Part shown: piece after piece, positions 50,036-64,000 of the stretch | Position numbering within the stretch: position 1 is the stretch's first letter | How the letters are laid out: every line of letters starts with the position of its first letter | Assembly: GCA_947501805.1 (NCBI GenBank) | Contig: CANMXJ010000008.1 | Location: 1-64,000, forward strand | Length of the DNA: 64,000 nucleotides | From: an uncultured Sulfitobacter sp. | Lineage (GTDB): Bacteria > Pseudomonadota > Alphaproteobacteria > Rhodobacterales > Rhodobacteraceae | Direction: 5' to 3' | Position numbers and translations under genes: made by a program | Notes under the pieces: generated by a model | Told to the model about the DNA's origin: nothing | What the model saw: only the letters and a program-made list of their open reading frames with translations | Database searches by the model: none

Positions 50036-50055
50036 AAATTGCCCATGGGCAATTT
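50036..50055. repeat. Candidate parS palindrome, copy 2
   Basis: AAATTGCCCATGGGCAATTT, a perfect 20-bp palindrome that includes the 14 bp of copy 1, 164 bp away. It overlaps the stop codon of the ABC ATPase gene at 50054. I saw no third full copy elsewhere in the window. The 49889-50035 interval between the two copies is non-coding. Confidence 0.75.
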
Positions 50056-50848
50056 AGCCCCAGGGCTGGTACGGGTCTGGTAGAGGGATCGCGGCCAGCA
50101 GCTCGCGCGTATAAGCAGCCTGCGGAGCATCAAACAATGTTGCAGTTTCGCTTTCCTCAACGATTTCACCATTATGCAGGACCAGAACACGGTTACATAA
50201 CCGTCGGATCACAGAAAGATCATGGCTGATAAATGCCAGCGTCAATCCTAAATCCTTAACCAAATTCCCCAACAAATTCAGAACTTGCGCCTGACTGGAA
50301 ACGTCCAGGCCGGAAACAATCTCGTCCGCCAGAATGAAGTCTGGCCGCAGTGCAACGGCGCGCGCGATACCAACTCTTTGTCTCTGGCCGCCGGACAATT
50401 CATGCGGATAGCGTTGTGCGAAATTTTGCGGCAAGCCGACCATGTCAAGCGCCTCGTTCACGCGCGCAGTTAATCCATCCATCCCGTGCAAACGCAATGG
50501 CCCCGCAATGATCCCGCCAACACGTCGCCGCGGATTGAGGGATGACATCGGATCTTGAAAAATCATCTGGAACCTCTGCCGCATCCCGCGCAGCTGGTCT
50601 TCGGTCCTGTGGGTGATGTCGGTACCAGCAAAGTGGATGCTGCCGCCGGTGGGCTCCAGTAGCCTTAGCATCGCGCGGCCCAGCGTGGATTTACCGGAAC
50701 CTGACCCGCCTACAATGCCCAACACCGCACCCTTTGGTACATCAAAGCTGAGGCCTTTCAAAATCTCGATGCGGGGCGCGGCACCCAACAAGGGTTTGCG
50801 TGTCATATCGGGCAAGGACAAATGCAGGTCGCGGATTTCATACATCAT
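50054..50848 (-). CDS. Dipeptide/oligopeptide-type ABC transporter ATP-binding protein (DppF-like)
   Basis: A 264-residue ABC ATPase with Walker A GGSGSGKST, signature ELSGGQRQRVGIARAV and Walker B FILADEIVSGLDVSS. It is shorter than typical DppF (about 330 residues) and lacks most of the C-terminal extension. It overlaps the upstream ATPase gene by ATGA coupling. Its stop codon lies within the second parS-like palindrome, so the operon ends exactly at the partition region. Confidence 0.9.
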   Translation of the reverse strand: MMYEIRDLHLSLPDMTRKPLLGAAPRIEILKGLSFDVPKGAVLGIVGGSGSGKSTLGRAMLRLLEPTGGSIHFAGTDITHRTEDQLRGMRQRFQMIFQDPMSSLNPRRRVGGIIAGPLRLHGMDGLTARVNEALDMVGLPQNFAQRYPHELSGGQRQRVGIARAVALRPDFILADEIVSGLDVSSQAQVLNLLGNLVKDLGLTLAFISHDLSVIRRLCNRVLVLHNGEIVEESETATLFDAPQAAYTRELLAAIPLPDPYQPWG

Positions 50849-51714
50849 CTCGCGGCCCTCACATCGTGCTCTGCAACCTCTTTCTCGACGTACTCGATCA
50901 CATGTTCCGGTACAGGTGTCAGGCTGCCAGTCGGGTCCGTATAGGTTGGCGTTGCCGCGAGCAGGGCGGCGGAATAAGGGTGGATGGGTCGCATGAAAAA
51001 GCGATTCATCTGAGCGTCTTCGACAACCTTTCCGGCATAGAGGACAGACAGAGTGTCGCAGACCTTGGATACGACACCAAGGTCATGGGTGACAAACAGA
51101 AGGGCAGTGTCGTGACGTTGCTGCATCTCGGCGATCAGGCGCAGAATTTGCTTTTGCACCGTAACATCAAGCGCCGTGGTGGGTTCATCCGCAATGATCA
51201 GTTTAGGCTCTGCGGCAAAGGCAGACGCGATCAAAATGCGCTGTCGCATCCCGCCTGATAACTCATGTGGATAGCTCCGCATCACCCGCGTTGCGTTTGG
51301 AATATGCACTTCGTCCAAAAGCTCCAGTGCACGCTGTTGTGCCTTTGTTTTGCTCCAGCCCAGTATGTCTACCAGCCGCCGTGTGATTTGGGGGCCGATG
51401 CGTTTTGAAGGGTTTAACGCGGTGAGAGGATCCTGTGGGATCAGCGCGGCAGTAGCACCGATCTGCTTGCGCCGTTCCGTTTGTGACAGGGACAGAAGGT
51501 TCACACCATCCAGCCATATTTCCCCGCTGGTGACGTGCAGCGCACGGGGCAGGGTGCCCAGTACCGCTTTGCCAATCATGGACTTGCCTGCACCGGATTC
51601 GCCCACCAAACCATGCACCTGTCCCGCACTGACAGTTAGCGAAACAGAACGCAGAATCGGGGCACCGGATTTCAGACACACCGTGAGATTGCGAATGGAC
51701 AGATAACCGCTCAT
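50845..51714 (-). CDS. Dipeptide/oligopeptide-type ABC transporter ATP-binding protein (DppD-like)
   Basis: A 289-residue ABC ATPase with Walker A GESGAGKSM, signature ELSGGMRQRILIASAF and Walker B LIIADEPTTALDVT. The C-terminal part has MRPIHPYSAALLAATPT, typical of DppD/OppD. It overlaps both neighbours by 4 bp. The Walker A motif reads GKSM where most have GKST or GKSV, a mild variation. Confidence 0.9.
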   Translation of the reverse strand: MSGYLSIRNLTVCLKSGAPILRSVSLTVSAGQVHGLVGESGAGKSMIGKAVLGTLPRALHVTSGEIWLDGVNLLSLSQTERRKQIGATAALIPQDPLTALNPSKRIGPQITRRLVDILGWSKTKAQQRALELLDEVHIPNATRVMRSYPHELSGGMRQRILIASAFAAEPKLIIADEPTTALDVTVQKQILRLIAEMQQRHDTALLFVTHDLGVVSKVCDTLSVLYAGKVVEDAQMNRFFMRPIHPYSAALLAATPTYTDPTGSLTPVPEHVIEYVEKEVAEHDVRAAR

Positions 51715-52562
51715 CTCAACACCGGATCAAAGCGGTCTTTCAACCCTTCGCCCAATTGGCTGAAGCTGAGAACGGTCAGGAACAATGTAATGAGCGGGAA
51801 CACCAACACCCACCAGGCCTGATGCACCGAAGTGCGGCCCTCTGAAATCATGCCCCCCCATGTCGGGCTGTCTGTCGAGATAGAGAGGTTTACGAAAGAC
51901 AGGATGGCTTCGACAATAACAGCGATGCCCATTTCCAAGGTCAGAAGGGCGACGATTGTCGGCAACACGTTTGGCAGTATTTCAGTCATCATTGTGCCAA
52001 AACGGGTGCGGCCCGCGACCTGTGCAGATGCGACATAGTCCATCGCACTCTGTGACATGGCTTCGGCGCGGATCACACGGGCGAAACGGGTCCAGTCAAT
52101 GACAACAATTGCAATGATGATGGAGGTCAGACCGGGGCCAAGAACCGCGATAAGCAGGATCGCAAAGAGGACTGGGGGGAAAGCCATCCATATGTCGACA
52201 AAACGGCTGATGATCCGGTCCGCCCAGCCGCGGTAAAAGCCAGCGACAAGGCCCAATGTGGCACCAACAATGCAGGTCAAACTGCCCGCAATCACCGCCA
52301 CGATCAGAGCCAAACGCGCACCATAGAGTATGCGTGACAACACATCACGGCCTAATGAGTCTGTGCCGAGAAAATATCCCGGCTCCGATCCGTCCATCCA
52401 AAAGGGCGGCAGGCGGCCAAGGAACAAATCCTGCATCAACGGGTCCTTGGGGGCGATCAGGGGCGCGCAGAGGGCTGCGAGCACCAAAACGGTTAACCAC
52501 CCCCCTGAAAGCCACAGGCGCATCCCTATGGGCCGTTTTTCGCCTCCGCGCGCGTCACGCAT
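51711..52562 (-). CDS. Dipeptide/oligopeptide-type ABC transporter permease (DppC-like)
   Basis: A 283-residue inner-membrane permease with about six helices. LGTDSLGRDVLSRILYGARL is the DppC hallmark near residue 65, and the EAA-type loop includes YVASAQVAGRTRFGTMMTEI. It overlaps the DppB-like gene by 8 bp and the DppD-like gene by 4 bp. Confidence 0.92.
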   Translation of the reverse strand: MRDARGGEKRPIGMRLWLSGGWLTVLVLAALCAPLIAPKDPLMQDLFLGRLPPFWMDGSEPGYFLGTDSLGRDVLSRILYGARLALIVAVIAGSLTCIVGATLGLVAGFYRGWADRIISRFVDIWMAFPPVLFAILLIAVLGPGLTSIIIAIVVIDWTRFARVIRAEAMSQSAMDYVASAQVAGRTRFGTMMTEILPNVLPTIVALLTLEMGIAVIVEAILSFVNLSISTDSPTWGGMISEGRTSVHQAWWVLVFPLITLFLTVLSFSQLGEGLKDRFDPVLR

Positions 52563-53565
52563 GGCGCAACCTTGGATTCAGGACGACATAGAGCATATCA
52601 ACGACCAGATTAACCACAGTGAAAAGCAGGGCGAACAGGATTACGATGCCTTGAATCAGGGGCAGGTCGCGGTTGATCACTGCGTCAATCGCCATATTGC
52701 CCAGCCCTTCGTAGCTAAACAGCCGTTCGATGATAACCGTGCCGCCGATCAAGAAAGTGAATTGGACCCCCACCAGCGTCAGTGTGGGAAGTATCGCATT
52801 GGGTAACGCTTCGCGGGTAATGACATGGTTCTCACCATAGCCCTTGGTCCGTGCGAGGGTCACGTAATCAAGATGCATTGTCTCCTTTAGAGACTGTTTT
52901 AAAAGCTGTGCAATGATCGCAGCAAGGGGTATGGCAAGCGCGAGGGCAGGCATGAACATATGTGCCACAAGATCGGCCCAGACATCAAAACGCAGGCGGA
53001 TCAGCGATTCAAACAGATAAAAATTCGTTGAAAAATCAATATTAAGCGAAGGGGAGATGCGGCCGGAAATATGAAACACCGGCCAGAGCACCCCAAAAAG
53101 TAAGATTAACACCAATCCCCATAGAAAATCTGGTATCGACAGGGCCATGCCTGCACTTACATCGACCGCAGCTTCGGTTTTGGAATCGCGGTAGCGGGTG
53201 CCAAGAAGGGCCATTGCGCCGCCCATCAACATCGCCATGACCAAGGCCATGATCGATAATTCCAACGTGGCGGGCAGGCGGCCCAAGACCAGATTTGCAA
53301 CCGGTTGGCGCAGCGAGATGGATTGGCCGAAATCACCTTGCATGACGCCACCCAGCCAGATGATGAACTGCTGGAAGATGGATTTGTCAAAGCCGTATTG
53401 CGCTTGGAGTTGTGCAATGTCCGCATCCGTGGCACCGGGCGGTAACATCATGGCAATCGGGTTGCCTGGTACAACGCGGATCACGACAAACACGATCACC
53501 GCGACACCAAAAAGCGTGACGGCGGTAGTCAGAAGCCGGATCAGGATGTTGCGTAGAACTGTCAT
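52555..53565 (-). CDS. Dipeptide/oligopeptide-type ABC transporter permease (DppB-like)
   Basis: A 336-residue permease with the DppB pattern: the N-terminal first helix with VVPGNPIAMML, FGQSISLRQPVANLVLGRLP, and the cytoplasmic loop YVTLARTKGYGENHVITREAL. The end FALLFTVVNLVVDMLYVVLNPR is also typical. It is 76 bp behind the binding-protein gene, with a GC-rich hairpin in the gap. Confidence 0.92.
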   Translation of the reverse strand: MTVLRNILIRLLTTAVTLFGVAVIVFVVIRVVPGNPIAMMLPPGATDADIAQLQAQYGFDKSIFQQFIIWLGGVMQGDFGQSISLRQPVANLVLGRLPATLELSIMALVMAMLMGGAMALLGTRYRDSKTEAAVDVSAGMALSIPDFLWGLVLILLFGVLWPVFHISGRISPSLNIDFSTNFYLFESLIRLRFDVWADLVAHMFMPALALAIPLAAIIAQLLKQSLKETMHLDYVTLARTKGYGENHVITREALPNAILPTLTLVGVQFTFLIGGTVIIERLFSYEGLGNMAIDAVINRDLPLIQGIVILFALLFTVVNLVVDMLYVVLNPRLRHA

Positions 53566-53641: not shown

Positions 53642-55168
53642 TTAGCTGCGTGTCATCAGATGCGGCAGCAACGCGCCGGATCTATGCGGTGTGACCTTGA
53701 CACCCGCAGCATGCACAATCGGTTGCACATACTGGATAAGCGGAATGACCTCGGCGTTTTCAGCGATGCGGCGGTCCACTTCTTTCCATCCCGCGATGCG
53801 CTTGGTTTCGTCAGCTTCGGCCCACAGTGGCAAGATTGCGTTGAAGGTGTCCTCGCCGTCCCAGACAGAGTGCGGAGAGGGGCCAAACATCGCAAAACCG
53901 GTTGAGGTCGTGGGATCACCAACCGAATTGCCCCAATTGTAGAACGCGGCAGGGGCGAGTTGATCGGCGGCGCGTAGCTCGAAATGCTTTGCGATTTCGT
54001 AGACTTCGATCTCGGCTTCGATCCCGACGCGGCGCCACAGACCCACGATGGCCTGCACCATTTCATAGTCCTTGGGTTTGTAACCTTTGGTCGACTGAAT
54101 CTTGAATTTCACTGGATTATCAGGGCCATAACCGCTCTCTGCCAACAACTTCTTGGACAGCTCAGGATCGTAAGCCACCTTGATGCTAGGATCATAAGCC
54201 GGATAATCCGGCGTTTGCAGCGTGTCGATCGGGATGCCGTAGCCGGACAGCAGGCGGTCCACAATCAACTGTTTGTCGATGGCATGTGCAGCGGCCTTGC
54301 GTACATTGGGGTCCGTCATAACTTCGATATCGTTGAGGAAAATCATGCCGATGTCGGAGACCGGTTCGGCCACTCCCGCCAAACCGTCTTTGGCCTTGAG
54401 GCGGTCGAATTCTTCGTAGGGAATTTCCAAAGTAACGTGGGAATTGCCCGATTCCACTTCGGCCACGCGAGACGCGGCATCGGTGACAAACTTGATCGTA
54501 ACGGTCTTAAATTCGGGCGCACCACCCCAGTAATTCTCGTTCGCCTTGAGACGGACAAAGGCGTTACGCTCGAATTTTTCGACCATATAGGGGCCAGAGC
54601 CAATAGGAGCAGCCTCGAACCCCTCCGCGCCAACTTCTTCGTAGTATTTCTTGGGCATGACGTAGCCGGTCAGGAACGACATCCACTTGAAGAAAGTTGG
54701 GTCATATTCCTTGACGTCAGCGGTTACACGGTTTCCCTGCGCGACCACATTTTCGATCTTGCCCCAGACAAACTGGATCGGGGAGCCGGTGTCAGGGTTG
54801 CCAACGCGGGTGAGGGACCAGGCCACGTCATCGGCGGTCAATGGATCGCCGTTGTGCCATGTTACGCCTTCGCGCACGTCCATCCAGATCGCGGAATTAT
54901 CGTCGTTCCAGCCGTAGCCCGTGATGATGCCCGACCCAAAGGACAGATCGGGGTTCTGCGGGATATATAGATCAAATACCGACTGATAGAATCCCTGAAT
55001 TGTCGGGTTCACGGCTGACAGGCCTACGGTGGGATCCCAGCTGGGCAAGTTGACGTTGTAGGCCACGACCAGTTCGTCGATGGCCTGTGCAAAGGACGGC
55101 AGACCGACAGTTGCAAATGTGGCTGCGGCGGCAGAGGTTTTTAACAGGCTTCTTCTGGACAGTTTCAT
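53642..55168 (-). CDS. Dipeptide/oligopeptide-type ABC transporter substrate-binding protein
   Basis: A 508-residue family 5 binding protein. The N-terminus KLSRRSLLKTSAAAATFATV is a clear twin-arginine signal. The mature start DELVVAYNVNLPSWDPTVG and the central VTWHNGDPLTADDVAWSLTR are family markers. It sits between an FAD oxidoreductase gene (55200) and the permease genes. Family 5 proteins bind peptides, opines, glycosides or other amides. The ligand here is probably the substrate of the oxidoreductase-cyclase-IOR genes nearby (inference). Confidence 0.9.
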   Translation of the reverse strand: MKLSRRSLLKTSAAAATFATVGLPSFAQAIDELVVAYNVNLPSWDPTVGLSAVNPTIQGFYQSVFDLYIPQNPDLSFGSGIITGYGWNDDNSAIWMDVREGVTWHNGDPLTADDVAWSLTRVGNPDTGSPIQFVWGKIENVVAQGNRVTADVKEYDPTFFKWMSFLTGYVMPKKYYEEVGAEGFEAAPIGSGPYMVEKFERNAFVRLKANENYWGGAPEFKTVTIKFVTDAASRVAEVESGNSHVTLEIPYEEFDRLKAKDGLAGVAEPVSDIGMIFLNDIEVMTDPNVRKAAAHAIDKQLIVDRLLSGYGIPIDTLQTPDYPAYDPSIKVAYDPELSKKLLAESGYGPDNPVKFKIQSTKGYKPKDYEMVQAIVGLWRRVGIEAEIEVYEIAKHFELRAADQLAPAAFYNWGNSVGDPTTSTGFAMFGPSPHSVWDGEDTFNAILPLWAEADETKRIAGWKEVDRRIAENAEVIPLIQYVQPIVHAAGVKVTPHRSGALLPHLMTRS

Positions 55169-55199
55169 GTGGTTTCTCCCTTATTAGTTTCTGATAATT

Positions 55200-56768
55200 T
55201 CAGTTTCCAACCAGTTTCTTGGCGAGCATCGTCCCCGGTCCCGCGCCGGTTCCGCCACCGGGCCAGACAGCGGCACCCGTAAGATACAGATTCTTGAGCG
55301 GGGTGGTTCCATCGGCGAATCCGCGCGCGGGGCGATTCATAAAATGCTGATGCAGATGATGGCTGCCACAGACCTGATCCCCGCCGACAAGATTGGGGTT
55401 TTCTGTCTCTAACATTTCGGGCGTGACGATATGTTGTCCAAGGATGTTGGCGCGTGTGCCGGGGGCGTAACGTTCCAGTATATCCAAGGCCCGATTGGCA
55501 AACGGTTCTGCCGCATCCTGCCAGTTTTTCGCGGAAATTGTGCCACCTGCATCACCTTTGATTTCCCCCGGTGCCATGCGCACTTGTAGCCACAATACGT
55601 GTTTACCCTTGGGCGCACGGGATGGATCAACAACAGTGGGCTGGCCGCATACAATCACCGGTTCATCGGGCAATAATCCGGCTTTGGCTTGGGCATAGGT
55701 GCGCGCCATTTGGTCCATTGAGGGTGCCATATGAACATAGGCAAATCGCTTGAGTTCGGGTGCTGTCCAACTGGGCAGATCATCCATTGCGAGGTGGATC
55801 ATCATTGTGCCGGGAGCATGCTGATATGTCTCCATCGCGGCCTGATGTCTCTGGTCGCCGGTGTCACCGGTCAGCCTGTTCAGCGCGGCAGGCGAGACAT
55901 TGGCGATCACAGCCTTTTCTGCTTCAACCAGCCTGCCGTCATTCAGAATGATGCCGAAGGCCCGACCGGCAGCGTGTTTGATGCCAGTTACCTTTTGCCC
56001 GCAATGCACAGCGCCACCGCGGCTTTCGATCATTTTCACCATCGCCTTGATTATTGTGTCTGCACCACCTTGGCCAAGGACCATGCCAAAGGCCTGTCCC
56101 GCCATCGCTTCAAGGTATGGAAAAACCGCGCCACCCGCGATATCCGGCGCAAAATCAAGGTGCATACCCCATGCGGCAAGGGTCGCTTTGACGTGATCGC
56201 TTTGGAATGTCTCATCCAGCCATGCACGCGGCGACATCATCAGGAAACGGGCAAGGTCCAGCGTTCCGGCACGCCCTCTCTTGCGCCACGTTTTCCACCC
56301 TAAAGATGAAATTGCACGTAAATTCATCGGACTGCCAAGAACGCCAAAGATGGATTCGGCCTGATCCGGAAAATTCTGTGTGAGTTCAGTCCATGTCGCG
56401 GCGTCCGCATTTGAAAAGCCTCGCACACGCGCAGTTGTTAGCGCGGCATCATTGGAGACGCCAAGCCAGCGACCATCGGGGAAAATGGAAGCAAACGGAT
56501 TGCCCGTTGGCGCAATAGCCAAGCCGTGTTTTGCAAGTTCTGCTGCATATTCTGTATGAAATGCCGATCCGGCAAACAGGGACAGGTTCATAGCGGCCCA
56601 GTCGTGTTTGAAGCCGGGAAGCGTGTATTCGCCGGATTTAACGGCACCGCCGGGTGTGGCGGCCTGTTCGTAAACCGCTACTTTCCAGCCGCGCGCGGCT
56701 AGATGACAGGCGCATGCCAGCGAATTGTGGCCCGCTCCGATGATGATTGCGTCTGGATTGGTTGGCAT
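55200..56768 (-). CDS. CrtI-like NAD(P)/FAD-dependent oxidoreductase (first of pair)
   Basis: A 522-residue flavoprotein of the phytoene desaturase-like/PYROXD2 group. The dinucleotide motif is AIIIGAGHNSLACACHLAARG, followed by VYEQAATPGGAVKSGEY. The end includes the FAD-contact stretch NLYLTGAAVWPGGGTGAGPG. Carotenoid genes are absent, so a desaturase or amine/alcohol oxidation on a catabolic substrate is likely. It is first in the minus-strand operon with the Dpp-type transporter. A paralogue of similar length lies at 57678 in the divergent operon. Confidence 0.85.
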   Translation of the reverse strand: MPTNPDAIIIGAGHNSLACACHLAARGWKVAVYEQAATPGGAVKSGEYTLPGFKHDWAAMNLSLFAGSAFHTEYAAELAKHGLAIAPTGNPFASIFPDGRWLGVSNDAALTTARVRGFSNADAATWTELTQNFPDQAESIFGVLGSPMNLRAISSLGWKTWRKRGRAGTLDLARFLMMSPRAWLDETFQSDHVKATLAAWGMHLDFAPDIAGGAVFPYLEAMAGQAFGMVLGQGGADTIIKAMVKMIESRGGAVHCGQKVTGIKHAAGRAFGIILNDGRLVEAEKAVIANVSPAALNRLTGDTGDQRHQAAMETYQHAPGTMMIHLAMDDLPSWTAPELKRFAYVHMAPSMDQMARTYAQAKAGLLPDEPVIVCGQPTVVDPSRAPKGKHVLWLQVRMAPGEIKGDAGGTISAKNWQDAAEPFANRALDILERYAPGTRANILGQHIVTPEMLETENPNLVGGDQVCGSHHLHQHFMNRPARGFADGTTPLKNLYLTGAAVWPGGGTGAGPGTMLAKKLVGN

Positions 56769-56796
56769 TGTTTCTTAGACTCCCCAGCCACAAGAT

Positions 56797-56816
56797 AATT
56801 GCAAACGCATGTAATT
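56797..56816. promoter_or_regulatory. Operator-like dyad in the divergent promoter region
   Basis: AATTGCA, six bases, TGTAATT: an inverted repeat with one mismatch per arm, 20 bp long. It lies between the divergent FAD oxidoreductase (56768) and cyclase (56882) genes. Size and AT content suit a MarR dimer such as the one encoded at 59237, but no second copy was found. Confidence 0.45.
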
Positions 56817-56842
56817 TTGTCTAGCATTGATTCATCATGCAA

Positions 56843-56862
56843 CCACGAGGGGAAACTCGTGG
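56843..56862 (+). other. Leader hairpin upstream of the cyclase gene
   Basis: CCACGAG, loop GGGAAA, CTCGTGG: a perfect 7-bp stem ending about 20 bp before the cyclase ATG, in the predicted 5' leader. The ribosome site GGGAGAG lies after it. It could stabilise the transcript or be a regulatory dyad. Confidence 0.55.
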
Positions 56863-56881
56863 CAGATAGGGAGAGTATCAA

Positions 56882-57673
56882 ATGAGTGCATCGGATATGT
56901 TGGGCAATCTAGGGGCGATGCTGGTCTCTGGTGGTGTTGAAGTGGTGGATTGCACAGGCGTGCTGGGACCGGAAACGCCGATCATCCAGTTACCACCGGA
57001 GTTCGCCAAACCAACGCCAAAAGTCGAGATTCACAAGATTTCGGAATACGACAATGACGGCCCGTTTTTTGCATGGAACTGGATGGTTCTGGGTGAGCAT
57101 TCAGGAACCCACTTTGATGCGCCGCACCATTGGATCACCGGCAAGGACTATCCGGATGGCTTCACCGACAAGCTGGATGTGCAGCGGTTGGTGGCCCCTG
57201 TGAATGTGATCGACTGTTCGGCGCAAAGTGCCGAAAACGAGGATTTCCTGCTGACGGCTGATGGCGTGAAGGCATGGGAAAAGGAACATGGCGAAATCAA
57301 TGCCGGTGAATGGGTTGTCATGCGCACGGATTGGGATGCGCGGGTCGATGACGAAGCAAACTTCCTGAATACTGACGAGGCAGGACCACATTCACCGGGT
57401 CCGACGCCGGACTGCATTGAGTATCTGCTCAGCAAAAAGATCGTCGGTTGGGGCACGCAGTGCATAGGCACGGACGCAGGTCAGGCTGGCGGGATGGAGC
57501 CGCCATATCCGGCGCATAACCTGTTGCACCGCGACAATTGTTTCGGGTTGGCGTCCTTGACCAATCTGGACAAGTTGCCGGCAAAGGGCGCGATCCTGAT
57601 TGCTGCGCCTTTGAAAATTAAGGACGGTACGGGTTCGCCCATCCGTGCGCTTGCCTTAGTTCCAAAAGGCTAG
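56882..57673 (+). CDS. Cyclase family protein (kynurenine formamidase / isatin hydrolase type)
   Basis: A 263-residue metal-dependent hydrolase of the cyclase family (PF04199 type). The metal signature is GEHSGTHFDAPHHW, at about residues 73-86. The family includes kynurenine formamidase and isatin hydrolase, which open an amide or lactam. GGGAGAG precedes the ATG. It is the first gene of the plus-strand operon with an FAD oxidoreductase, MarR, VOC and IorAB. If it opens a cyclic alpha-keto amide, the product would be a 2-oxoacid suited to IorAB (inference). There is no signal peptide, so it is cytoplasmic. Confidence 0.83.
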   Translation: MSASDMLGNLGAMLVSGGVEVVDCTGVLGPETPIIQLPPEFAKPTPKVEIHKISEYDNDGPFFAWNWMVLGEHSGTHFDAPHHWITGKDYPDGFTDKLDVQRLVAPVNVIDCSAQSAENEDFLLTADGVKAWEKEHGEINAGEWVVMRTDWDARVDDEANFLNTDEAGPHSPGPTPDCIEYLLSKKIVGWGTQCIGTDAGQAGGMEPPYPAHNLLHRDNCFGLASLTNLDKLPAKGAILIAAPLKIKDGTGSPIRALALVPKG

Positions 57674-57677
57674 GGGC

Positions 57678-59240
57678 GTGGCAGCGTTTGACCATCTGAT
57701 CATCGGCACGGGCATCAATGCGTTGGTGGCCGCGGCGATGTTGTCGCGCAAAGGCGACAGCGTGCTGATGGTTGAGCGCGAAAGCCGGATTGGCGGCTGT
57801 ATGTTCACCTCGGACGAGGTCACATTGCCCGGTTATCATCACGATGTTATGGCCGCGACTTTTGTGTTGTTCCTGACAGGGCCTGCCCATGCAGCTTTGG
57901 GGGATGATCTGGCGAAACACGGGTTGGCGTTTTGCCATTCTCCCCATCCGACGGCTGTTCTGCGCCCCGACGGATCGTCGCTGGTTGTGGCGACGGACCG
58001 TTCGGCAAATGTTGCTGCGTTTAATCAGCGGGGGGCAGGAGATGGTGATCAGCATGGGCGCGATGTCGGCGCAATAGAGCAGGATGCGGAGTTTCTTTTT
58101 GCACTTTTGGGTCAGCCGCTCTGGTCGCGCCAAACTTTGACGCTGGTTGCAAAACAAGCTTGGAAAAAGGGCCTTGGCCCGCTGAAGACATGGTTTGGCG
58201 AAGCGATGGAACCGGCGCGGGGATGGCTTGAAACGCGCTATACATCGCAGGATGTGCAGGCGCTTTGGGCCCCTTGGGTTTTGCATGTCGGGTTGACCCC
58301 CGAAGCGACCTATGGCGGGCAAATGGCGCGAGTCATTGCTTTTGCTTTGGAAGCGGCCGGCGCGCCTGTTGTCAAAGGCGGGGCAGGGCAGGCAGCGGCT
58401 GCATTTCAGACTCTAATCGAGGCAAATGGCGGGAAAATCCGCACCAATGTCGAGGCAACTAGGATCATCGTCGAGAACGGCAGGGCGATTGGCATTTCGA
58501 CATCGGATGATGAAAAGATTCTGGCTAACAACGTGATTGCCAGCACAGCACCGGGGCAGCTTTATGAAGGGTTGCTTGCAGATCAGAACCCGCCTGCGAC
58601 TGCCAAAAAGTTCCGTCATGGACGTGGTAATTTCCAACTGCATTTTGCTCTGGACGGGCCCGTCGAATGGAACGCGGAAGGGTTGGAAGATGTGGCGCTG
58701 ATCCATCTGTCGGATGGCATCGACTCTGTGTCAAAATCCAGCAACGAGGCGGAGCGTGGCATGTTGCCAGAGGTGCCGACGATCTGTGTAGGCCAGCCGC
58801 ACCGCATGGATCCGACACGTTGCCCTGAAGGTAAAGCACTGCTTTGGTTGCAAATCCCCGATGCGCCGTCGGTTATTAAGGGTGATGCTGCGGGCAAGAT
58901 AAAAACTGTGCCGGAATGGTCCGAGCAGATGCGGGAAGCCTTTGCCGACCGGATCGAAGCCATCCTTTCAAAACACATCGGGAACTGGGATCAGATCAAG
59001 TTGAAACGCCGCGCCTATTCGCCTGCCGATCTTGAAAAGATGAACGTAAACCTTGTGGGGGGCGATCCCTACGGCGGGGCGTGTACGCTTGATCAGTTCT
59101 TTGTTTGGCGCCCTTACGCGGCCCAGACGAACAACGGAACGCCCGTTAAGAACCTCTATCATATCGGTGCTTCTACGCATCCCGGACCGGGTTTGGGTGG
59201 TGGGTCCGGCCTGAATGTGGCCAAAGGACTGGGCGCATGA
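57678..59240 (+). CDS. CrtI-like NAD(P)/FAD-dependent oxidoreductase (second of pair)
   Basis: A 520-residue flavoprotein of the same group as the one at 55200. It starts with GTG, 4 bp after the cyclase stop, with GGCTAGGGGC upstream. The dinucleotide motif is LIIGTGINALVAAAMLSRKG, followed by VERESRIGGCMF. The C-terminal end NLYHIGASTHPGPGLGGGSG mirrors the paralogue. Its stop overlaps the MarR ATG. The two paralogues may act on successive intermediates or form a heteromer (inference). Confidence 0.85.
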   Translation: MAAFDHLIIGTGINALVAAAMLSRKGDSVLMVERESRIGGCMFTSDEVTLPGYHHDVMAATFVLFLTGPAHAALGDDLAKHGLAFCHSPHPTAVLRPDGSSLVVATDRSANVAAFNQRGAGDGDQHGRDVGAIEQDAEFLFALLGQPLWSRQTLTLVAKQAWKKGLGPLKTWFGEAMEPARGWLETRYTSQDVQALWAPWVLHVGLTPEATYGGQMARVIAFALEAAGAPVVKGGAGQAAAAFQTLIEANGGKIRTNVEATRIIVENGRAIGISTSDDEKILANNVIASTAPGQLYEGLLADQNPPATAKKFRHGRGNFQLHFALDGPVEWNAEGLEDVALIHLSDGIDSVSKSSNEAERGMLPEVPTICVGQPHRMDPTRCPEGKALLWLQIPDAPSVIKGDAAGKIKTVPEWSEQMREAFADRIEAILSKHIGNWDQIKLKRRAYSPADLEKMNVNLVGGDPYGGACTLDQFFVWRPYAAQTNNGTPVKNLYHIGASTHPGPGLGGGSGLNVAKGLGA

Positions 59241-59716
59241 GCAAGCCGGAAAATGCGACTGCTGATGCCGTGCGTCTGGGCGAAATGGGGCTGGAAAATT
59301 TCGCGCCTTATCTGATGAACCGGATCATCGGGCGCTATAATGCGGCGCTACAGGCGGAAATGGCAGAGCTGGGGCTGACCACGCCACAAATGCGGTCTTT
59401 AGCCGTTCTTTCGGTTATTGATGGCATTCTGATCCGCGAACTTGCGGTTTATGCGGTTGTGCAACAATCGACCCTAAGCCGCGCATTAGACACGTTACAG
59501 CAGAACGGAATGATCCGGCGTGAAACAGATGGACAAGACAGTCGTGCGACACGCGTTTTTCTGACCGAGAAAGGGCGCGAGGCCTATGAGAGGCTTTGGC
59601 CACATATGTCGGGTGCTTATGATGCGATGTTCAAGGGCGTCGGAGATGCTGAGAAACGCGCATTTGTCGGCACCTTGCAAACCATGTTGCGCAACATTCG
59701 CAAACACGATTTCTGA
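59237..59716 (+). CDS. MarR family transcriptional regulator of the cyclase-IOR operon
   Basis: A 159-residue MarR protein with HTH segment LIRELAVYAVVQQSTLSRAL and wing DGQDSRATRVFLTEKG. It overlaps the FAD oxidoreductase stop by ATGA. It resembles the 159-residue MarR at 1319 in length and in the alignment of the HTH region; both are near IOR genes. It is likely to autoregulate the operon and the divergent transporter operon, with an aromatic acid or acyl-CoA as ligand (inference). Confidence 0.86.
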   Translation: MSKPENATADAVRLGEMGLENFAPYLMNRIIGRYNAALQAEMAELGLTTPQMRSLAVLSVIDGILIRELAVYAVVQQSTLSRALDTLQQNGMIRRETDGQDSRATRVFLTEKGREAYERLWPHMSGAYDAMFKGVGDAEKRAFVGTLQTMLRNIRKHDF

Positions 59717-59741
59717 GAACCGCAATTCAACGGGGGATACC

Positions 59742-60329
59742 ATGAAATTCTGGATGACACTTGGCGCAGGACTGATTGCCGCTGCCGCCGCACAATCCGA
59801 GAGCATTCCAGGGATGCGCGGCGTTGATCATATTGGTCTGACCGTTCCTGATCTGGCACAAGCAGAAATGTTTTTTTCCGACGTGCTGGGGTGTGAAAAA
59901 GCCACTTCATTTGGGCCGTTTCGTGACGATGAAGGGACGTTTATGCAGGATTTGCTGGATGTCGATCCACGTGCTGTTGTTGAAACAATAACGCTTATGC
60001 GCTGCGGTTTCGGCTCTAACATAGAGCTTCTCAAGTATACCGCCCCGGATCAGAAGGTTGTCCAGCCGCGCAATAGCGATATCGGCGGGCACCACATCGC
60101 AATCTATGTGGATGATATCAATGTTGCTGCCGATTATCTCAGAGGCAAGGGAATCAGGACATTGATGGGGCCGCTTCCCGTCAACGAGGGACCGGCGGCA
60201 GGCCAGTCCATCATGTATTTCTTTGCACCTTGGGGTTTGCAGATGGAGGCGATCTCCTACCCTGATGGAATGGCTTACGAAAAGGATGGCGGTACGGTGC
60301 TGTGGTCCTCGCGTTCTCCTGCCGAATAA
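59742..60329 (+). CDS. VOC (glyoxalase/dioxygenase superfamily) protein with a predicted signal peptide
   Basis: A 195-residue vicinal-oxygen-chelate protein. The N-terminus KFWMTLGAGLIAAAAAQSES looks like a signal peptide. Two beta-alpha-beta modules follow. Putative metal ligands are H in GVDHIGLTV, E in NIELLKY, H in GGHHIAIYV and E in GLQMEAIS. ATG 59742 is preceded by GGGGGA. Earlier in-frame starts lie inside the MarR gene. Periplasmic VOC proteins are unusual. In the operon it could be a lyase or isomerase acting before import, or a binding protein. The reaction is unknown. Confidence 0.8.
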   Translation: MKFWMTLGAGLIAAAAAQSESIPGMRGVDHIGLTVPDLAQAEMFFSDVLGCEKATSFGPFRDDEGTFMQDLLDVDPRAVVETITLMRCGFGSNIELLKYTAPDQKVVQPRNSDIGGHHIAIYVDDINVAADYLRGKGIRTLMGPLPVNEGPAAGQSIMYFFAPWGLQMEAISYPDGMAYEKDGGTVLWSSRSPAE

Positions 60330-60350
60330 TGACAAACCGGAGTTACTGAT

Positions 60351-62501
60351 ATGGCGGAACGCTCGTTCAAGGCTGAAGTGGAACACCTGCGGATGGGGAA
60401 TGGCGAGGTGTTCACCGGCGAGGGAATTCTGGCGATCACCAAGGCGCTGCTGGAAAACGGCGTGGGATATGTCGGCGGCTATCAAGGTGCGCCGATCTCG
60501 CACTTGATGGACGTGTTGGCCGATGCCCAAGGGTTGTTGGGCGAGTTGGGCGTGCGGTTCGAGGCAAATGCATCAGAGGCTGCAGCAGCAGCGATGCTGG
60601 CGGCGTCCGTGCATTACCCCATTCGCGGTGCGGTGACGTTCAAGGGGCCGGTTGGGGTAAACGTGGCGTCTGATGCCTTGGCGAACCTGTGTTCCAGTGG
60701 TGTGAACGGCGGCGCGTTGATCATCGTCGGGGAGGATTACGGCGAGGGCAGTTCCATTATGCAGGAACGCAGCCACGGCTTTGCAATGAAGTCGCAATTC
60801 TGGCTGCTGGACCCGCGTCCGAACCTTCCCTGCATTACGAAGGCTGTGAAAGACGGGTTCGAGCTGTCCGAGGCCAGTAATACGCCCGTGATGCTGATGG
60901 TGCGCATCAGATCGTGCCACGTGACGGGCAGTTTTGTAACGAAAGACAACGTGCCGCCGCCGCTGACAGTCAAGGAAGCGATTGCCAATCCGCAGTCGGA
61001 TTTCAATCGTGTTGTATTGCCGCCGATGAGCTATCTGCATGAGCAGGACAAGGTAAAGAATCGCTGGCCCGCTGCGGAGAAGTACATCGTCGAGAACAAG
61101 CTGAACGAGGTGTTCGGCCCCGAGAAATCCAAGATCGGGATCGTCACGCAGGGCGGCATGTACAACAGCGTAATCCGTGGTCTGCAAAGGCTTGGGCTGG
61201 CGGATGTCTTTGGTCAGACCGAAGTGCCAATTTATTGTCTGAATGTCACCTATCCCCTGATTAGAGACGAATTTGATGCCTTCTGTGAGGGCAAAGAGCA
61301 TGTGTTGGTGGTCGAAGAAGGGCAGCCGGAACATATCGAACAGCACCTTGGGTCGTTTCTGTATAAATCCGGTCGCAAGCTGAAACTCTATGGCAAGGAC
61401 GTGTTGCCGATGGCGGGGGAATACACCGGTCAGGTGATGCTGGATGGGATGACCGCGTTTTTGAAAGCAGCAGCGCCCGACATGTTGCCGGGTAAGGTCC
61501 GTGCCCCGAATATGGAAGAGCCGCAGATACCGGACCTTTCCAAAACCGTACCGATCCGCCCTCCCGGTTTTTGTACGGGCTGTCCTGAACGTCCGATCTT
61601 TGCGGGCATGAAACTGGTCGAGATGGAATTGGGCAAAAGCCAGATCACTGCTGACATCGGCTGTCATTTGTTTGGCTCTCTACCACCGTTCGAAATGGGC
61701 GGCGCGACGATGGGTTACGGGCTCGGCCCTGCGGCCAATGCGGCGTTTGACGGCGGTGGTGAACGGCGCGCGATTTCGATCCTTGGCGATGGTGGGTTCT
61801 GGCACAATGGCCTGACGTCCTCCATCGGGAACATGGTGTTTAACAAATCCGACAATGTGGCGATCATCGTTGATAATTACTATTCGGCGGCGACGGGCGG
61901 GCAGGATGTGCTGTCCTCGCGTGCGCAGAATGACACCAAGGCCACGCAAAACCCGATATCCGCTGCGCTTAAGGGTGTTGGTGTGGAGTGGGTCCGCCAG
62001 ATTGACCACACCTATGACGTGGCCAAGGTGCGCGACACGTTGAAAGAGGCTCTAACAACGGACTTTAAGGGGCCAAAAGTCATTGTCGCGTCCTCTGAAT
62101 GTATGCTGAACAAACAGCGCCGCGAGAAACCTATCCGCAATACCGCGATCAAGGAAGGACGGCGCGTGGATGTGCCGCGCTTTGGTGTGGATAGCGATGT
62201 TTGTACCGGCGATCACGCCTGTATCCGGCTGTCGGGCTGTCCGTCGCTGTCGCTGAAACGGCTGGATGATCCGCTGCGCGATGATCCGATTGCACATATC
62301 GACCAAACTTGTGTGGGCTGTGGCAACTGCGGTGAAGTGGCAGATGCGGCTGTCTTGTGCCCGTCGTTCTATCGCGCCGATGTGGTGCATAATCCGGGCA
62401 AGTTCGAGACATGGCGTGCGGGCTGGCGGAACAGGATTATCAACCATCTGCAAAAGCGGCGGGACGCGAAACGCTTGCGCCTGAAAGGGGTTGTCACATG
62501 A
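60351..62501 (+). CDS. iorA: Indolepyruvate-type oxidoreductase alpha subunit (IorA)
   Basis: A 716-residue IorA. The TPP pyrimidine domain has YVGGYQGAPISHLMDVL and KGPVGVNVASDALANL. The TPP/Mg domain has ILGDGGFWHNGLTSSIGN and the later VDNYYSAATGGQ. Cys motifs include FCTGCPERPIF (about residue 405) and a C-terminal two-cluster ferredoxin domain with CTGDHACIRLSGCP and CVGCGNCG (about 620-670). GGAG precedes the ATG at 60351. It overlaps iorB by ATGA. With IorB it should oxidatively decarboxylate an aryl 2-oxoacid to an acyl-CoA, with ferredoxin as acceptor. Confidence 0.88.
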   Translation: MAERSFKAEVEHLRMGNGEVFTGEGILAITKALLENGVGYVGGYQGAPISHLMDVLADAQGLLGELGVRFEANASEAAAAAMLAASVHYPIRGAVTFKGPVGVNVASDALANLCSSGVNGGALIIVGEDYGEGSSIMQERSHGFAMKSQFWLLDPRPNLPCITKAVKDGFELSEASNTPVMLMVRIRSCHVTGSFVTKDNVPPPLTVKEAIANPQSDFNRVVLPPMSYLHEQDKVKNRWPAAEKYIVENKLNEVFGPEKSKIGIVTQGGMYNSVIRGLQRLGLADVFGQTEVPIYCLNVTYPLIRDEFDAFCEGKEHVLVVEEGQPEHIEQHLGSFLYKSGRKLKLYGKDVLPMAGEYTGQVMLDGMTAFLKAAAPDMLPGKVRAPNMEEPQIPDLSKTVPIRPPGFCTGCPERPIFAGMKLVEMELGKSQITADIGCHLFGSLPPFEMGGATMGYGLGPAANAAFDGGGERRAISILGDGGFWHNGLTSSIGNMVFNKSDNVAIIVDNYYSAATGGQDVLSSRAQNDTKATQNPISAALKGVGVEWVRQIDHTYDVAKVRDTLKEALTTDFKGPKVIVASSECMLNKQRREKPIRNTAIKEGRRVDVPRFGVDSDVCTGDHACIRLSGCPSLSLKRLDDPLRDDPIAHIDQTCVGCGNCGEVADAAVLCPSFYRADVVHNPGKFETWRAGWRNRIINHLQKRRDAKRLRLKGVVT

Positions 62502-64000
62502 ACATGGTGCTTCCCCAGAAAACACCGGATGCGCGGGTCGGGCAGATCATCAAACTGGCAGTGATGGCCGTTGGTGGTCAGGGCGGCGGTGTGCTGACAT
62601 CATGGATCGAAAGCATGGCACGCGCACAAGGATATGTGTGTCAGGCGACAAGTGTGGCCGGTGTGGCGCAGCGCACGGGGGCCACGATTTATTACGTCGA
62701 AATGACACCGAAATCCGAGCTGGAGCCGGTTTTTGCACTGGCCCCTGCGGGTGGTGACGTTGATATTCTGATTGCATCGGAAATGATGGAAGTGGGCCGC
62801 GCGGTGATGCGCGGTTTTGTGACGCCGGACCGCACGGTGTTGATCGGATCAACCCATCGTTCCTTGGCTGTCTCGGAAAAGATGGCCCCGGGTGACGGGA
62901 TCGCAGATGCGGACGAGGTCCGTGCTGCCGCCGAGATTGCAGCGCAGCAGTTGATTTTGGCGGATATGGACAAGCTGGCTGTTGAACAGGGGTCTGTGAT
63001 TTCGTCGAGCTTGTTTGGTGCGCTGGCGGGGGCTGATGCCCTACCGTTCCCAAGGGAAGCGTTTGAAGATGCGATCAAGGCGAGTGGCAAAGGAGTTGAG
63101 GCATCGCTGCGCGCTTTTGCTGCCGGTTATGATGCGGCGCGCCATGGCGTTGCCGCGCCGGAGCAAGAGGCCGTGAAACCCGCACCGGCATTGCAAGGCC
63201 CGGCAAAGGAAATGCGCAAGTGGGAGGGGCTGGTTGCGCGTGCGCAAGCGATGCCCGCACCGGTTCAGGAAATGGCGCTGCATGGTTTGATGAAGGTCGT
63301 GGATTTTCAGAACTGCGCCTATGGGACCGTCTATCTGGATCGTCTGGACGGTGTTGTTGCACAGGATGATTCAGCGCATGATTTTCTGCTGAGTGCGACA
63401 GCTGCAAAATATATTGCCACTGCAATGGCCTATGACGACATCATTCGGGTTGCGGACCTCAAGACACGGCAACCGCGGATGGAGCGGATCTGGAACGAGA
63501 TGGGGGCGAAAAGTGCGAACCTCGTTGAGCTGACCGAGTTTTTCCATCCCCGCGCCGAAGAGGTTGCCAGTCTGATGCCAGCCAAAATGGGTGCGGCCTG
63601 GGAGTCAAATCCTAAACGCATGGCGCTGTTGAACCGCTTGTTCAACAAGGGGCGGCGGTTGCGGACGCATACACTGCGGTCGTTCCTGATGCTGCATTTT
63701 TTGGGTGGGCTGAAAGGCTATCGGTTGCAAACACGGCGGCATCAGGTCGAAGTGGCACATCTGGAGGCGTGGTTGCGTGATAGCCTGAGCGTGTTGAAGG
63801 ATGATTACACGCTAGCGGTGGAGTTGCTGAAAAACCGCCGATTGGTCAAAGGCTATTCTGATACCCATGCGCGCGGATTGACGAAATTCGGCACCGTGAT
63901 GGGTGCTGCGGCTTTGTTGAAAGGACGGACGGATGCGGCGGACTGGATGAACCGGTTACGCGAGGCAGCTTTGCAAGACCCGGATGGCAAAACGTTGGAA
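62498..64000 (+). CDS. iorB: Indolepyruvate-type oxidoreductase beta subunit (IorB), truncated by the window end
   Basis: The open frame continues to the last base (501 codons visible), so the C-terminus is outside the window. The N-terminal gamma-type domain has KLAVMAVGGQGGGVLTSWI and TSVAGVAQRTGATIYYVEM, the family markers. The ATG at 62498 overlaps the iorA stop (ATGA). Classical IorB is only about 200 residues. The visible chain of over 500 residues carries a large extra C-terminal region of the kind also seen at the end of the fused IOR at 5905. Confidence 0.86.
   Translation, partial: MNMVLPQKTPDARVGQIIKLAVMAVGGQGGGVLTSWIESMARAQGYVCQATSVAGVAQRTGATIYYVEMTPKSELEPVFALAPAGGDVDILIASEMMEVGRAVMRGFVTPDRTVLIGSTHRSLAVSEKMAPGDGIADADEVRAAAEIAAQQLILADMDKLAVEQGSVISSSLFGALAGADALPFPREAFEDAIKASGKGVEASLRAFAAGYDAARHGVAAPEQEAVKPAPALQGPAKEMRKWEGLVARAQAMPAPVQEMALHGLMKVVDFQNCAYGTVYLDRLDGVVAQDDSAHDFLLSATAAKYIATAMAYDDIIRVADLKTRQPRMERIWNEMGAKSANLVELTEFFHPRAEEVASLMPAKMGAAWESNPKRMALLNRLFNKGRRLRTHTLRSFLMLHFLGGLKGYRLQTRRHQVEVAHLEAWLRDSLSVLKDDYTLAVELLKNRRLVKGYSDTHARGLTKFGTVMGAAALLKGRTDAADWMNRLREAALQDPDGKTLE

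Follow-up and report, generated by a model that had tools for sequence, protein, structure and literature searches.

A conserved cluster with an isatin hydrolase orthologue and paired CrtI-like flavoproteins in an uncultured Sulfitobacter: a candidate variant of indole and auxin catabolism

Two described catabolic systems stand closest to the locus reported here. The iif/ind cluster, known from Acinetobacter, Cupriavidus and Burkholderia, feeds 3-hydroxyindolin-2-one (dioxindole) towards anthranilate, dioxindole itself being consumed by IifA. For the iad auxin locus, known from Variovorax and Bradyrhizobium, isatin and isatinate are reported as intermediates. The passages seen of a 2018 review question isatin as a true intermediate of indole breakdown and describe the iif cluster as having no gene for making or transforming it (PMC6221969).

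Here we analyse 64,000 nucleotides of an uncultured Sulfitobacter sp. (assembly GCA_947501805.1, contig CANMXJ010000008.1, positions 1 to 64,000; "the window"), which hold two divergent operons around a cyclase gene, cyc. A first-pass annotation had proposed a catabolic system made of an ABC importer, paired FAD oxidoreductases, a cyclase, a MarR regulator, a VOC protein and IorAB; all of them are present, every gene named there being an open reading frame, with family profile matches for the components other than dppB and dppC. From sequence comparison, we consider it somewhat probable that the cluster is centred on isatin and serves to import and degrade a compound derived from indole. Numbers beginning with G, C and L are our own labels for genomes, contigs and loci.

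The cyclase gene and its neighbourhood

The cyclase (56882–57673, plus strand; Cyclase family, PF04199) is 86% identical (225 of 262 residues) to the crystallised isatin hydrolase B of Labrenzia (Roseibium) aggregata (LaIHB, 4J0N), with a phmmer value of 9.8e-158 to 4J0N_A across residues 1–262. Passages of PMC6117287 report measured isatin hydrolase activity for LaIHB and describe the metal motif, the pocket residues and a strict preference for Mn2+. The metal motif, HxG[T/A]HxDxPxH, is the same in both proteins and intact in the window (HSGTHFDAPHH at residue 73), and the pocket residues F63, W65 and W84 are kept, as are A224 and S225 of the GLAS motif. These likenesses support an isatin hydrolase orthologue that would open isatin to isatinate, the reaction known for its close orthologue, and the earlier view of the cyclase as a ring opener of this type is supported. 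Another cyclic amide or trione could still be the substrate, IorAB then receiving a different 2-oxoacid: the cyclase family is broad, its relatives of known structure including kynurenine formamidases as well as other hydrolases, and Phe209 of LaIHB is replaced by Tyr, a conservative change that speaks against isatin. Set against this are the identity to an enzyme of measured activity and the linkage to iif (indole), iad (indole-3-acetic acid, IAA) and 2-aminobenzoyl-CoA monooxygenase/reductase (ACMR)-type genes treated below, and we regard a substrate other than isatin as unlikely.

On either side of the control region stand genes for CrtI/CrtO-like FAD oxidoreductases, crtI1 (55200–56768, minus strand; Amino_oxidase and NAD_binding_8 profiles) heading the left operon and crtI2 (57678–59240, plus strand) following cyc. 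The left operon, crtI1-dppABCDF, occupies 56768 to 50054; the right one, with the order cyc-crtI2-marR-voc-iorA-iorB, extends to contig position 64033. A search of genome contigs with CrtI2 as query gave 15 loci, and in 10 of these the block dppFDCBA-crtI1 // cyc-crtI2-marR-iorA-iorB is complete. Of the remaining five, three are truncated (L003, L004, L012), one is rearranged (L015) and one lacks iorAB and has transposase genes near (L013). In the last, a metagenome-assembled genome of Rhizobiaceae, transposase/integrase-like genes replace iorAB after marR (L013:12523-16186), likely a recent loss.

We then used a family sample of 394 genomes from 393 genera, about one per genus, with match cut-offs of 1e-100 for CrtI1 and CrtI2, 1e-150 for the ACMR-type protein, 1e-60 for the monooxygenase and 1e-50 for the cyclase; Fisher tests on this sample ignore phylogeny. 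CrtI2 occurs in 44 genomes, and CrtI1 in 43 of these 44 against none of the 350 others, the pair lying on one contig 1.6–6.3 kb apart in 41 of 43 genomes. This linkage is far beyond chance. Isatin-hydrolase-like cyclases are found in 78 of the 394 genomes, including 43 of the 44 with CrtI2. Within 32 CrtI2 neighbourhoods, crtI1, cyc and crtI2 stand together in 30 (29 in the order of the window), and iorA-iorB lie beside crtI/cyc genes in 28, one of which (L088) ends at a contig edge before cyc. The first-pass proposal was staked on a conserved neighbourhood, and the block is indeed kept across Rhodobacteraceae and other Alphaproteobacteria, including Rhizobiales and Kiloniella. An aminotransferase class V/kynureninase-like gene is seen beside the cluster at L073:7310-8443 and in three more loci.

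The CrtI-like pair and the formation of isatin

CrtI1 and CrtI2 are 34% identical to each other, and their nearest NCBIfam models are CrtO and CrtI, both far under cut-off: 115.8 and 86.3 bits, respectively, for TIGR02734 (CrtI family, cut-off 238.1), and 205.1 and 148.1 bits for NF045689 (CrtO, cut-off 1000). In a tree of 44 rows they form two clades with support of 100/100 (midpoint root), whose branching is broadly similar by eye. This similarity, the palindrome that the loci have in common (below) and the conservation across Rhodobacteraceae, Rhizobiales and Kiloniella argue against the idea that these are conserved neighbours with no common pathway, an idea for which the rarely linked VOC, IspD and FAD monooxygenase genes, the last two past 64000, can be cited and which we regard as very improbable.

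The structure models are of moderate confidence (pLDDT 71.1 for CrtI2 and 65.6 for CrtI1), and therefore no active-site argument is drawn from them. The nearest fold to the CrtI2 model is the gamma-carotenoid desaturase 4REP (query TM 0.66), followed by the phytoene desaturase 4DGK (0.46) and the nicotine oxidoreductase NicA2 (0.46–0.52), so the predicted fold would be one already in use on N-heterocycles, as in NicA2. CrtI1 and CrtI2 thus share their family, and the CrtI2 model its predicted fold, with the CrtI/CrtO carotenoid desaturases and ketolase, and differ from these in that no listed model reaches its curated cut-off. We set aside a carotenoid function of the two: their scores fall short of these cut-offs, and no link to other carotenoid genes was noticed, none having been searched for. 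CrtI1-like genes also occur in haloarchaea and Cedecea, in uninformative contexts; a CrtI1 match with one internal TGA in G222 (contig C2, 116952-118508) is either a disrupted gene or an error in sequencing, and a scan of viral contigs gave no relative.

What CrtI2 might do is suggested by its company. An iif-type styrene/indole monooxygenase occurs in 12 of the 394 genomes, 11 of which have CrtI2 (p 1e-10), and it lies within 12 kb of crtI2 in 5 of these 11. On a plasmid of Azospirillum thermophilum the genes follow one another as AraC, SDR, monooxygenase, flavin reductase, transporter, CrtI2 and cyclase. In the iif loci read from Burkholderia (two), Paraburkholderia, Variovorax and Acinetobacter an IifA-like gene is found instead, directly before iifB in four loci and after the flavin reductase in Variovorax. 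Its B. pyrrocinia relative is annotated as dienelactone hydrolase family, and this gene would correspond to IifA, judging from its position and from our reading of the iif papers. When 12 iifBCD loci are compared, seven have CrtI2 and the cyclase without an IifA-like gene and five the reverse (p 0.0013, only a guide, the seven loci having been reached through CrtI2, which tempers the argument); IorAB accompany six of the seven. The seven reached via CrtI2 comprise five loci together with the Azospirillum and Alloyangia plasmids, and the remaining five are plasmid loci reached via the monooxygenase. The monooxygenase search alone matched 21 plasmid records, of which 11 were read (two as L049 and L054), and yielded seven iifB plasmid loci, two with CrtI2 and cyc and five with the IifA-like gene. 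Plasmid loci without iifB (L104, L107, L108, L109) have neither alternative and were left out of the comparison, as were six CrtI2 genomes with the monooxygenase on another contig. The simplest reading is that CrtI2 and isatin hydrolase do the job of the IifA-like gene by way of isatin. Since IifA consumes dioxindole and the IifA-like gene alternates with crtI2 and cyc in the loci read, CrtI2 becomes a candidate dioxindole-to-isatin oxidase.

Several observations weigh against this assignment. Only 11 of the 44 CrtI2 genomes have the indole monooxygenase, and the genome of the window has no styrene/indole monooxygenase (iifC homologue) at 1e-60. The two groups of iif loci differ in taxonomy, Alphaproteobacteria against Beta- and Gammaproteobacteria, and absence in the comparison means absence within the 15–25 kb read; one B. 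cenocepacia strain with an IifA-like gene carries a 51% identical cyclase on another replicon. In one genome where crtI2 and cyc are apart (G358), CrtI2 lies near IifB without a cyclase in that 20 kb. Moreover, the stretch of 41.6 kb read from Mesorhizobium loti has CrtI1-Dpp-VOC and CrtI2 without cyc, iorA or iorB.

The last case also lends itself to another explanation, in which isatin forms from dioxindole non-enzymatically and the CrtI pair acts on another, imported compound that feeds the same lower pathway. A spontaneous conversion of 2,3-dihydroxyindole to isatin was indeed proposed for Providencia, according to the passages seen (PMC9871250), which again detracts from a role of CrtI2 in this step. 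The 25 kb read from Neorhizobium, moreover, hold Dpp, CrtI1 and a luciferase-like monooxygenase but no isatin module. On the other side, CrtI2 adjoins cyc in 30 of the 32 neighbourhoods and is present in the seven iif loci without an IifA-like gene, and the Azospirillum locus joins iifBCD to CrtI2 and the cyclase on a 672 kb plasmid where no CrtI1, and no second CrtI-like match, is seen. We therefore look upon non-enzymatic formation of isatin as doubtful, and CrtI2 as its candidate source is kept in what follows.

The occurrence of parts of the cluster by themselves points to a modular build. In the stretches read from Sulfitobacter D7, Paracoccus saliphilus and Paracoccus SMMA_5, cyc-marR-iorAB occur without the CrtI pair, and in P. 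saliphilus they adjoin an iad-type Rieske cluster; cyc-marR-iorAB thus serve as a shared isatin module. With Dpp and CrtI1 found separately in Neorhizobium, and so a separable entry unit, the window cluster looks like an uptake and first-oxidation unit (Dpp, CrtI1) joined to CrtI2 and an isatin unit. A serial double oxidation of one imported substrate, as had been suggested at first, is not shown by these data: no CrtI1 was found with CrtI2 on the Azospirillum plasmid, and CrtI1 occurs without the isatin module in the stretch read from Neorhizobium, so that CrtI1 and CrtI2 may act at separate points of entry. A luciferase-like (SfnG/RutA-like) monooxygenase is also seen beside the cluster or beside Dpp-CrtI1 in L078, L079, L083, L084, L087 and L102, and more weakly in L015. 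A flavin reductase and a small winged-helix regulator often accompany this monooxygenase, which is possibly another entry step.

Lower pathway, control region and gene layout

The right operon closes with iorA (60351–62501, plus strand), coding for an IorA-like TPP/Fe-S subunit of a proposed isatinate:acceptor oxidoreductase (CoA-acylating), and iorB (62498–64000 within the window, plus strand, the gene running on to contig position 64033), coding for an IorB-like subunit with DUF6537. IorA matches TPP_enzyme_C and carries a TPP motif at 479 and CxxCxxC at 654. Its IOR_alpha match (7.9e-83) lies under cut-off, with 278.7 bits for TIGR03336 (IOR alpha) where 650.9 are required, and such a divergent relative makes the assignment less secure. 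IorB matches POR and DUF6537, and its part inside the window scores 643.3 bits for PRK08312, above the cut-off of 348.

The fate of the IorAB product is suggested by a gene annotated as bifunctional salicylyl-CoA 5-hydroxylase/oxidoreductase that adjoins the cluster copy on an Alloyangia pacifica plasmid. It joins a VioD-like to an OYE-like half, an architecture which we take to be that of ACMR. Of the 44 CrtI2 genomes, 43 have such a gene, against 101 of the 350 others (Fisher 5e-20); the distance from crtI2 is no more than 30 kb in 13 of the 43. In G358, a 76% identical cyclase stands less than 10 kb from it. The genome of the window has a 66% identical match on contig C14 (L064), with VioD-like and OYE-like halves and 1293.5 bits for PRK08255 (cut-off 1078), a model whose name is salicylyl-CoA 5-hydroxylase/oxidoreductase and which does not fix the substrate. 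Its neighbours score just under cut-off for tryptophan 2,3-dioxygenase (384.3 against 390.7) and for the benzoate-CoA ligase family (365.0 against 375.25). The association is weakened by the 101 genomes that have the gene without CrtI2 and by a genus mate (G055) whose match is only 48% identical. It thus supports, and does not prove, 2-aminobenzoyl-CoA as the IorAB product; the step from a 2-oxoacid to an acyl-CoA put forward for IorAB in the first-pass annotation is well placed to be that from isatinate to 2-aminobenzoyl-CoA. Anthranilate-CoA genes, which the first-pass annotation had proposed to look for past 64000, were not recognised in the 16 kb read, such genes being on C14; for the window, the predicted continuation through the ACMR pathway would be coded elsewhere in the genome. 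The same stretch of C14 (L064:3952-11880) also holds an acyl-CoA dehydrogenase, an enoyl-CoA hydratase and a MarR gene, recognised partly by eye. On the Alloyangia plasmid (L054:6038-10810) the ACMR-type gene is followed by SDR, thioesterase, RidA, FAH and cupin genes, and a gentisate-like route past 2-aminobenzoyl-CoA is possible there.

The control region between crtI1 and cyc measures 113 bases (56769–56881) and, as had been supposed, is shared by both operons, with a conserved operator-like palindrome in it. An alignment of 41 control regions, the one of the window and those of 40 relatives, shows the conserved block TTGCAAAtGCAT, then TGTCTAG. The candidate MarR operator, ATTGCAAACGCATGTAA (56798–56814), lies between the two hexamers of a sigma-70-like site on the minus strand (56823–56795); the promoter scan of the region is weak alone (1 found against 0.4 expected). 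In 41 of 50 loci the 200 bases preceding cyc hold a palindrome [AT]TGCANN[TC]GCA[AT], where 0.46 such loci would be expected from shuffled sequence; the count excludes cyclases of less than 60% identity (L049, L056, L057, L058), one locus whose upstream part is too short (L004) and repeats with identical upstream sequence. Nine loci lack it; a marR gene is near in six of these and not in the other three. The palindrome is also present in L076, in whose stretch no marR was found, and in the CrtI-less loci L048, L050, L053 and L056; it is absent upstream of the A-type cyclases of L058 and L097. Other cyc genes without it, those of the Azospirillum and Alloyangia loci included, count against the overall proposal. 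A genome-wide regulon did not emerge: the only exact match of the wider pattern in the genome is the site itself, and with up to two mismatches 16 matches are found, against 8 for the reversed control pattern.

The putative repressor of both operons, MarR (59237–59716, plus strand; MarR profile), has 3CJN as its best solved relative (1.9e-53), followed by 7KYM (2.4e-21), and reaches 1.9e-11 with 3CDH, the structure of IadR, which binds IAA according to the passages seen of PMC9613470. By comparison, a MarR on contig C15 of the same genome is IadR-like (1.3e-46 to 3CDH). By sequence, the MarR of the window is not of the IAA-binding IadR type, and we infer that it binds the palindrome of the control region.

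The importer genes all lie on the minus strand: dppA (53642–55168), coding for a substrate-binding protein (SBP_bac_5, 4.6e-73) whose N-terminus resembles a Tat signal by eye (SRRSLLK); the permease genes dppB (52555–53565) and dppC (51711–52562), recognised as open reading frames in conserved positions; and the ATPase genes dppD (50845–51714; ABC_tran 1.9e-28, oligo_HPY under its cut-off) and dppF (50054–50848; ABC_tran 3.3e-31), both conserved neighbours of crtI1. The importer side of the earlier outline therefore stands, its left edge at 53642 does not, as it leaves out dppBCDF, and the true end is at 50054. In the right operon, crtI2/marR and iorA/iorB each overlap by 4 bases. The voc gene (59742–60329, plus strand; Glyoxalase_4) is accessory: it was rejected as a core enzyme, being present in 1 of the 15 loci and 3 of 30 short loci, window included. 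Homologues are sporadic near CrtI/Dpp genes (the window, L010, L037, L040, L055, L051), and signal-peptide-like N-termini were seen by eye in 6 of 6 distinct ones inspected, which makes the secretion first suggested for VOC plausible. Past iorB come an IspD gene and a convergent FAD monooxygenase gene, both assigned by Pfam and both rejected as pathway parts (ispD in 3 and the monooxygenase in 1 of the 15 loci), and then OmpA-like, caspase-like and NosR/NosZ-like genes recognised by eye.

Put together, the proposed route would begin with DppABCDF importing an indole-derived compound. Our guess is an oxindole; the importer suggests something larger or charged. CrtI1 would carry out the first oxidation and CrtI2, with FAD, the conversion of dioxindole to isatin, which the cyclase would open to isatinate with Mn2+. 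IorAB would then convert isatinate and CoA to 2-aminobenzoyl-CoA by oxidative decarboxylation, with ferredoxin as the electron acceptor, and the monooxygenase/reductase of C14 would take on the product, while MarR on the palindrome would be released by a pathway intermediate. Speculatively, CrtI1 could dehydrogenate oxindole to indol-2-one, water then adding at C3 to give dioxindole, and the CrtI pair would in this way turn a CH2 into a C=O. A chemical parallel is offered by the CrtO ketolase, which performs such a conversion. Every one of these reactions except isatin hydrolysis we infer. The earlier outline of import, ring opening to a 2-oxoacid and formation of an acyl-CoA largely survives, apart from its serial double oxidation. 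In its most complete form our proposal is tentative, possible rather than probable: CrtI2 (dioxindole to isatin) and CrtI1 (oxindole methylene to carbinol, with oxygen from water) would be the isatin-forming enzymes so far missing from indole catabolism in bacteria. Isatin hydrolase and an isatinate:ferredoxin oxidoreductase would complete with them an isatin-CoA route that leads to 2-aminobenzoyl-CoA and offers an alternative to the formation of free anthranilate through IifA, and MarR would sense an isatin-type intermediate.

Relation to known indole and auxin systems

If the proposed roles are right, the cluster and its relatives supply candidate genes for both the formation and the use of isatin. 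They also suggest a role for IorAB in iad-type auxin loci, the conversion of isatinate to a CoA thioester, and yield a candidate operator site for the kind of MarR found with the isatin module. In addition, CrtI/CrtO-like flavoproteins working in N-heterocycle catabolism would correct many carotenoid-based annotations. In the open-licence literature, judged by titles, starts of abstracts and passages, we found no link between a CrtI-like flavoprotein and isatin or between IorAB and isatinate, which is weak evidence of absence.

One may ask whether the cluster is simply a second locus for IAA degradation of the iad type. Iad-type Rieske genes do lie beside cyc-marR-iorAB in P. saliphilus and after iorB in G263, and IorAB homologues are markers of iad loci in the passages seen of PMC9613470. 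The window cluster, for its part, has no Rieske, ligase or thiolase gene, and its genome carries a separate iad-type cluster on contig C15 (L097:6713-15683) with a thiolase, an SDR, an isatin hydrolase of its own (48–49% identity, A-type GLQC), a ligase, Rieske alpha and beta subunits, a reductase and the IadR-like MarR, and without iorAB in the 20 kb read. A second iad cluster was accordingly rejected and is, in our estimation, highly unlikely.

The gene set of the Azospirillum locus recurs in the GS cluster of Providencia rettgeri, for which the passages seen of PMC9871250 list AraC, SDR, a styrene/indole monooxygenase, a flavin reductase, a MetA-pathway protein, the cyclase GS-A and, beside it, the unassigned oxidoreductase GS-O (1613 bp); Dpp, CrtI1 and IorAB are missing from that list. 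From its size and position GS-O would be a relative of CrtI2. The product is named there as N-formylanthranilic acid, of which isatinate is an isomer (C8H7NO3), so GS-A may be a plain isatin hydrolase.

With the iad auxin locus the window cluster shares a MarR, IorAB homologues and a cyclase, annotated there as kynurenine formamidase, and differs in having the CrtI pair and the Dpp importer instead of Rieske oxygenase, ligase and thiolase. Several CrtI2 loci resemble the iif/ind cluster in holding iifB, iifC and iifD homologues, and differ from it in that no IifA-like gene was found, CrtI2 and isatin hydrolase standing in its place. The cluster would be a new variant of indole and auxin catabolism.

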